Origin: Salinadaptatus halalkaliphilus
GTDB lineage: Archaea; Halobacteriota; Halobacteria; Halobacteriales; Natrialbaceae
Length of the DNA: 64,000 nucleotides
Assembly: GCF_006543045.1 (NCBI RefSeq)
Contig: NZ_RBZW01000021.1
Span: 186,001-250,000, forward strand
Direction: 5' to 3'
Shown here: piece by piece, positions 23,039 through 24,202 of the stretch
How the letters are laid out: every line of letters starts with the position of its first letter
Position numbering within the stretch: the first letter of the stretch is position 1
Translations under genes and position numbers: made by a program
The notes under the pieces: generated by a model
The model's input: the letters and a program-made list of their open reading frames with translations, nothing else
The model's database searches: none
What the model was told of the DNA's origin: nothing

Positions 23039-23059
23039 CCTCGGGGTCAAGCCCCGAGG
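23039..23059 (-). repeat. IS right-end hairpin, copy 1
   Basis: CCTCGGGG and CCCCGAGG pair across a five-base TCAAG loop. On the minus strand it follows the tnpB stump and is preceded by GGGAAGC, as at the ends of haloarchaeal tnpB elements, where the end also overlaps the guide (omega) RNA. The sequence CCTCGGGGTCAAG recurs at 23991-24003. Confidence 0.65.
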
Positions 23060-23070
23060 CTTCCCGTGGT

Positions 23071-23286
23071 TTAGTCGGACACTCCCACGACACCATCGGT
23101 CTGATAAGCGCCGCCGGCTACTCGGTCAGGAATGTCATCCCAGTCCACGCCTTGCTTGGCGAGGCGGATGGTTTCGTTGTACACCGACCGTGCTTCGAGC
23201 GTGGCGTCGTACAGCAGGCTCTCGTTGTCACTCTGGATGTTGAGTTGGAAGTCCAGCGTCTTGACGAGAGCCTGTGCGTCCGTCAT
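23071..23286 (-). pseudogene. tnpB: tnpB (IS200/IS605 OrfB) N-terminal fragment
   Basis: 71 codons. The first 57 or so, with LVKTLDFQLNIQSDNESLL and YNETIRLAKQGVDWDDIPD, are the typical N-terminus of haloarchaeal TnpB, an RNA-guided nuclease usually of about 400 residues. The frame then runs into unrelated sequence and stops. All of the RuvC catalytic domain is missing, so it is an internally deleted remnant whose right end survives next to it. The ATG overlaps the stop of the small gene upstream by 4 bases. Confidence 0.82.
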
Positions 23287-23521: not shown

Positions 23522-23971
23522 ATGGACGAGAAGCGGTCAAACCACACGGTGTACAACGTCAACTACCACTTCGTGTGGTGTCTAAAGTCAAGCAAAGCGA
23601 AGCTTTGCGTACCTCGCGGGATCGAAGATCCCGCTTAGTACCGTCACGCGATTCTCGAACCAATCGAAGATTCGCTGGAAACGAGTTTCCGCGACGTGTG
23701 CGACAAGTACGGCTACGAGATATTATCGCTCCACATCTCGCCCGACCACGTACACCTGTTCGTCTCCGCTCACCCGAAGCACTCACCGAGCGAGATTGTG
23801 CGAACAGTCAAGAGCATCACGGCGCGGGAGATGTGGGAACAGCACGAACCGTTCTTGGAAGACTACCTGTGGGGCGGTGGGTTCTGGGAAGAATCGTACT
23901 ACGTTGGGACGGCAGGCGATGTTTCGACCGACACGATTGAGCAGTATATCGAGCGCACGGAACACGTTTAG
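23522..23971 (+). pseudogene. tnpA: tnpA (IS200-type Y1 transposase) interrupted by an in-frame stop
   Basis: 150 codons including one internal TAG at 23636-23638. The start, HTVYNVNYHFVWC, and the part after the stop, YRHAILEPIEDS, join into a normal Y1 transposase. HISPDHVHLFVSA supplies the HUH metal motif, and DTIEQYIERT near the end supplies the catalytic Tyr region. Between WC and YRH, where the family has Pro-Lys, lie 57 bases (23582-23638) made of two hairpins and ending in TAG. The insertion keeps the frame, so removing it would restore the gene. A TATA-like ACTTTAGA sits 22-29 bases before the ATG. Confidence 0.85.
23592..23634. repeat. Paired mini-hairpin A, inside tnpA
   Basis: Hairpin 1, 23592-23608: arms GCAAAGC and GCTTTGC, loop GAA. 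Spacer of seven bases GTACCTC. Hairpin 2, 23616-23634: arms GCGGGATC and GATCCCGC, loop GAA. Both stems are perfect. The geometry is 17-7-19 bases, the same as in copy B at 24010. Confidence 0.9.
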
Positions 23972-24009
23972 CGGGGCTTACGGCCTTCACCCTCGGGGTC
24001 AAGTGGTTC

Positions 24010-24052
24010 GAGACGCGAAGCGTCTCGTCATCACGAAAATCTTCGATTTTCG
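24010..24052. repeat. Paired mini-hairpin B, downstream of tnpA
   Basis: Hairpin 1, 24010-24026: arms GAGACGC and GCGTCTC, loop GAA. Spacer of seven bases GTCATCA. Hairpin 2, 24034-24052: arms CGAAAATC and GATTTTCG, loop TTC. The lengths are identical to copy A and the caps next to the loops (GC-GAA-GC and ATC-NNN-GAT) are the same, while the outer arm bases differ but still pair. It splits an inverted repeat, CCTCGGGGTC on the left and GACCCCGAGG on the right. Confidence 0.9.
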
Positions 24053-24202
24053 AACGACCCCGAGGCACTCGGCCTGCTCCGCCTGTAGACCGGCAAATAT
24101 CCCACCTTGCGGTACGGGAAGCCGCGCCCTTTAGGGCGCGGAGGATGTCACGTTGTGGGAACAGTCGTAATTACTTCAATTAATGGCCGAACAGGTTCCC
24201 CT

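Follow-up and report, generated by a model that had tools for sequence, protein, structure and literature searches.

Double-hairpin insertions in a haloarchaeal IS200/IS605 element as probable members of a family of very short mobile DNA elements

The host element and its two insertions

The window, a 64,000-nt stretch of the Salinadaptatus halalkaliphilus genome, contains an IS200/IS605 element whose tnpB and tnpA genes are divergent, and the two double-hairpin structures studied here, A and B, lie inside it. On the forward strand, the Y1 transposase gene tnpA consists of a 5′ part (23522..23587; MDEKRSNHTVYNVNYHFVWCLK) and a 3′ part (23639..23971; YRHAILEP..., Pfam Y1_Tnp PF01797). What is left of tnpB on the reverse strand (23071..23286) encodes, on comparison with an intact TnpB, the N-terminal ~60 aa and the last residues (VGVSD), an internal deletion having removed the middle of the gene and spared the IS left end. 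The left-end hairpin of the IS, CCTCGGGG-TCAAG-CCCCGAGG (23039..23059, forward strand), is intact, whereas the right-end hairpin, with its 5-nt loop, is split by element B into a 5′ arm CCTCGGGG (23991..23998, forward strand) and a 3′ arm CCCCGAGG (24058..24065, forward strand). The right-end site of B has its empty counterpart in this left end, which at another locus (L015) is filled. Directly after the IS, positions 24092-24160 look like a further IS200/IS605 right end (GCCGCGCCCTTTAGGGCGCGGAGGATGTCA); an Rfam search of the region returned no family at its cut-off, only weak matches to sot0042 (in this right end) and HgcC.

Element A (51 bp; 23588..23638, forward strand) lies in tnpA between AAG (codon K22) and TAC (Y23), and adds 17 codons of which the last is an in-frame TAG. 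It is made up of TCAA, a 17-nt hairpin (GCAAA-GCGAAGC-TTTGC, 23592..23608; stem 7, loop GAA), the 7-nt spacer GTACCTC, a 19-nt hairpin (GCGGG-ATCGAAGAT-CCCGC, 23616..23634; stem 8, loop GAA) and TTAG. An earlier note on this DNA had this copy replace two codons of tnpA in frame and bring in a TAG; the frame and the stop codon stand, whereas the replacement does not, since 51 bp have been inserted between K22 and Y23. Sixteen relatives of A occupy the identical tnpA site (alignment A2).

Element B (54 bp; 24004..24057, forward strand) is located directly 3′ of TCAAG in the loop of the right-end hairpin of the IS. As first described, it comprised the hairpins GAGAC-GCGAAGC-GTCTC (24010-24026) and CGAAA-ATCTTCGAT-TTTCG (24034-24052) around the spacer GTCATCA. 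The structure is real, but a division into 19 + 6 + 19 nt between 5-nt ends describes it better than 17 + 7 + 19 does: TGGTT, a first hairpin (24009..24027; stem 8, loop GAA), TCATCA, a second hairpin (24034..24052; stem 8, loop TTC) and AACGA. A and B are discrete insertions, the limits of which were set by comparing occupied with empty sites.

That paired mini-hairpins are present at both places as described, and far above chance, is borne out by pattern counts, shuffles and folding. The exact pattern occurs at two places only, A and B, in the 4.52-Mb genome, and the reversed control gave none; with up to two mismatches allowed, only A and B were found in the window, although 4 of 100 shuffles also reached two places. 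Both copies fold as described when treated as single-stranded DNA, with z-scores of -5.2 for A and -3.3 for B, and of -5.9 when B is folded together with its IS arms. The earlier note had proposed a genome-wide pattern search for further copies: the exact pattern yielded none in this genome beyond A and B, but relatives were recovered by covariance models and by a pairing-aware scan, the latter giving 147 matches in 1.32 Mb of sampled loci versus about 4 in shuffled sequence.

Family architecture and covariation

The family layout is a 5-nt end, a 17-21-nt hairpin, a 6-7-nt spacer, a 17-23-nt hairpin and a second 5-nt end. The 5-19-6-19-5 form is shared by the relatives of B, whose ends are TGGTT or TCGTT ... 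NACGA, and B itself matches covariance model R1 with 81 bits (E 8.7e-27). In an alignment of 42 different copies (A1), 99% of the pair cells are paired and 8 of 16 pairs show changes on both sides, a degree of covariation reached by none of 500 shuffles; sliding the partner column by 1-3 positions reduced pairing to 26-48%. The conserved shape with changing but compensating stems, which had been noticed from A and B, thus holds for the wider family.

The loops are also distinctive. GNA or its complement TNC accounts for 72% of 202 loops, and for 60% in a set unselected for loop sequence, in which 82 of 94 loops are closed by C-G; among other hairpins, the share is 12% for short C-G-closed ones and 24% for those that are isolated. 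Mini-hairpins of the d(GCGAAGC) type with GNA loops are unusually stable in DNA. This stability and the enrichment of GNA/TNC loops favour DNA, on either strand, rather than RNA as the acting form.

The loop triplets come as reverse-complement pairs (GAA/TTC, GGA/TCC, AAA/TTT). Together with the two-sided stem changes, this is what would be expected if perfect stems and changing loops arose from hairpin-templated mutation, i.e. quasi-palindrome correction and loop flipping, and not from selection for recognition. Such a process accounts for the upkeep of pairing, but not for precise insertions, fixed ends (TGGTT/TCGTT ... ACGA) or the G^C target described below, and we consider it a rather doubtful explanation in place of selection, though one that can operate alongside mobility. 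The earlier note's proposal that the structures originate by copying or templating finds no support; what is observed is precise insertion.

Other double-hairpin units whose stems and spacers differ (TCGCACA, CGGGCTG, AAAGC) were seen at L267, L330, L033:860-908, L056:938-986, L231 (in the window's own genome, C42:13437) and L324. These suggest several more families of like architecture.

Insertion sites and evidence for mobility

Four insertion sites were found in tnpA: S0 with 45 nt, S1 with 51 nt, S2 with 54 nt in reverse orientation, and S3 with 54 nt. In an alignment with the solved TnpA structures of ISDra2 and ISHp608, S0 and S1 follow the first strand and S3 follows the HUH strand, positions that would correspond to surface loops of the protein. 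Inserts were also seen in tnpB, in other repeats, and in end-hairpin loops, both those of IS200/IS605 elements and those of remnants that lack a transposase. IS200/IS605 transposons are the most frequent host among the sampled loci, a preference that is partly due to ascertainment as these loci were partly fetched via tnpA. Comparison of empty and filled sites revealed no target duplication at the insert junctions. Among 66 distinct sites, G precedes the insert in 64 and C follows it in 58, the site finder having fixed the element's own end bases and not the flanks. Targeting of hairpin loops was tried as a general rule and rejected: it holds for the IS end loop and for GGCTGTGTGG^CACAGCC, but fails at other folded empty sites. 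Inspection by eye for IS608-like guide pairing between the hairpin foot and the flank showed no consistent match.

Evidence for mobility comes from three tnpA genes (L056, L067 and L084) that are ~98% identical outside the inserts: the first is free of inserts, the second has one of 45 nt and the third has two of 54 nt, with exact junctions. Because such closely related genes carry zero, one or two inserts at different positions, the elements are mobile and not inherited parts of the IS. The end-hairpin loop was empty in 97 cases and contained 54 nt in 30, with fillings of 51, 53, 57, 58 and 109 nt seen a single time each, in loci that partly overlap. On the tnpA tree, the minimum number of changes is 10 for S1, 11 for S2, and 3 each for S0 and S3; support for this tree is weak and part of the patchiness could stem from gene conversion, but the pairwise L056/L067/L084 case is independent of it. 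Furthermore, in the window's genome two loci (L210 and L211) carry two different elements in opposite orientation at one and the same site.

The alternative that the hairpins are inherited, fixed parts of one IS200/IS605 family and travel with it would fit with most sampled copies lying within IS200/IS605 elements or their remnants, and with class A inserts always occupying one tnpA site. It is contradicted already by L056/L067/L084, and also by the exact empty sites, by IS copies that are 98% identical and yet hold 45-, 51- and 54-nt types, with differing stems, at shared or separate sites, and by copies in unrelated TnpB families, in transposase-free remnants, in other repeats and in both orientations. 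We therefore regard it as very unlikely, and the claim of the earlier note that the structures are no part of a normal IS is upheld, near-identical IS copies differing in the inserts that they carry and copies lying outside any single IS family. Counted against the reading as mobile units is that many copies are passengers of an IS or of a larger repeat (groups G110, G120, G130 and G060).

In two of these groups (G110 and G120; L273-L290), many near-identical copies with TGGTT...CGACA ends were observed within a longer intergenic repeat (GCAAGCACCGCAG...GAGGAGCG), and in some cases (L280, L281) these adjoin another double hairpin. The 109-nt insert in an IS end loop (L103:2795), which is of the size of the SMR-A repeats discussed below, looks like one double-hairpin unit nested in the spacer of another.

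Effect on the tnpA reading frame

The insert lengths of 45, 51 and 54 nt are multiples of three, so that copies can survive in frame inside tnpA. The TAG or TGA stop codons of the S1 and S2 inserts are sense codons in about half of the copies, several of these differing from the stop-bearing ones by a point difference (GGA, CGA, TCAG); for one such in-frame copy, the annotation gives an intact transposase of 150 aa. Other coding copies bring in a stop codon and disable tnpA. These in-frame lengths, as well as a stop in about half of the coding copies with the rest of the ORF mostly clean, could be taken to indicate an element acting at the RNA level, such as a translational bypass cassette or an RNA switch in tnpA. 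Most copies, however, are non-coding or outside tnpA and lie in either orientation, GNA loops are a motif of DNA stability on either strand, and in several copies a point difference takes away the stop, as if these were read through normally, which makes this explanation very improbable.

Separately, annotated genes were seen to start (a DUF6516 protein) or stop (a TnpB) inside an element, on plasmids of Halobacterium hubeiense (L360) and Halovenus salina (L361). As the annotated gene boundary is inside the element, the element supplies the start or stop codon.

Distribution

Of the 125 genomes in the window's family, 124 gave a match to covariance model R1, which reached E 1e-10 or better in 115. 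In a phylum-wide search, 51 of 53 Halobacteriales matched versus 9 of 241 other Halobacteriota, where the matches were weak (best E 3e-11). The window's genome has 7-9 copies by model R1 and two by model R2, and one Haloquadratum genome has several dozen; a single copy can match a covariance model on both strands, and the genome copy counts are lower bounds, few candidates per genome having been scored in the large searches. At least 51 haloarchaeal plasmids carry copies, all plasmids among the matches listed being haloarchaeal. The phage records searched contained no copies, and 84 exact-pattern stretches in viral contigs were dismissed as chance, the pairing-aware scan leaving three marginal ones.

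Discussion

Altogether, A and B are very probably (roughly 0.8) single copies of a haloarchaeal family of mobile DNA elements that are very short (45-60 bp) and non-autonomous. The earlier statement that no element of this design has been described is too strong, as several known systems share the design or the behaviour. The closest description is that of SMR-A of Haloquadratum walsbyi (HqIRS42/43/55), described as ~110 bp long, transposase-free, with inverted ends and no target duplication, inserting preferentially inside near-terminal palindromes of IS605-type transposons and PATEs by a mobilisation called enigmatic (PMC3119063). The double-hairpin family agrees in its inverted ends, clean junctions and near-terminal IS605/PATE palindrome target, the comparison being with the published description. 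It differs in length (45-60 versus ~110 bp), and in having paired mini-hairpins, stem covariation and a G^C target, features that go unmentioned in the text of that description.

CGTC-tagged REP dimers, and the intragenic RPE-4 and RPE-6, are reported from bacteria, with loops of 4-5 nt and dimer spacers of mostly 20-100 bp (PMC3733652). They resemble the haloarchaeal units in having 8-9 bp stems, paired units, a CGTC-like tag (TCGTC/TCGTT) and no dedicated transposase known, and in that some lie inside palindromes and some in frame in genes (PMC3733652). The haloarchaeal stems of 7-10 and the tag are similar, but the loop is 3 nt and the spacer 6-7 nt. In REPIN/RAYT systems (GTAG REP doublets), two inverted hairpins are likewise moved as one non-autonomous unit; the present family has ends TGGTT/TCGTT ... 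ACGA in place of a GTAG tag, and the examined Y1 loci contained no RAYT/Y1 gene flanked by such units. Mitochondrial double-hairpin elements (Allomyces and others) are tiny mobile two-hairpin units with compensating stem changes, but belong to organelle DNA, and we claim no common descent. Nor do the elements behave as MITEs, with target duplication and the terminal repeats of a known IS, their junctions being clean. A literature search, with most subscription papers outside its scope, found no paper on this haloarchaeal double-hairpin family.

PATEs and terminal-only IS605 remnants deserve separate consideration, being likewise short, hairpin-bearing and free of target duplication. If the double-hairpin units were such derivatives, i.e. 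IS ends fused after core deletion and moved by the TnpA of that IS, this would account for two subterminal hairpins, the lack of target duplication and a host range equal to that of IS200/IS605, and a 52-bp terminal-only PATE is on record in the literature. However, PATEs derive from IS ends, whereas the ends of the double-hairpin family match no IS seen in a non-exhaustive set of Y1 loci (those of the window's genome and 20 others), and PATEs are among its targets. Moreover, the target is not a fixed 4-5 nt sequence 5′ of the insert but just G^C, and both hairpins are kept and yet are unlike each other. An origin of this kind is thus unlikely.

As for how the mobile units move, the hairpins would be what a recombinase recognises, on single-stranded DNA. 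Taken as a step by itself, movement in trans by a HUH/Y1-type single-strand transposase is our tentative best guess. Counted against it are the following observations: a non-exhaustive sample of 20 Y1 loci, and the window's genome, contained no autonomous element or transposase with these ends; no Y1 gene was detected in 32 of the 125 family genomes, yet 31 of the 32 have copies; Y1 gene count correlates weakly with copy number (rho 0.38) and was rejected as its predictor; and the target differs, IS200/IS605 elements using a tetra- or pentanucleotide and the double-hairpin unit a near-palindromic G^C. A bolder and rather unlikely extension would be that these are archaea-specific and the smallest known transposable units (~45-60 bp, paired extra-stable DNA mini-hairpins). 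They would be moved by a novel single-strand recombinase specific for G^C and, by inserting preferentially into IS200/IS605 transposons and their TnpB guide-RNA ends, would control these.

The question raised in Haloquadratum, by what means small mobile repeats are moved and why IS605 ends are their destination, now becomes testable, with unit, ends, target dinucleotide and pairs of empty and filled sites defined across haloarchaea, including the culturable Haloferax, Haloarcula and Natrinema. The family is also a clean natural example of hairpin pairing in DNA being preserved by selection or templating. Finally, it carries a warning for annotation, as insertions, in frame or bearing a stop, are present in what is annotated in haloarchaea as tnpA, tnpB and TnpB guide RNA.
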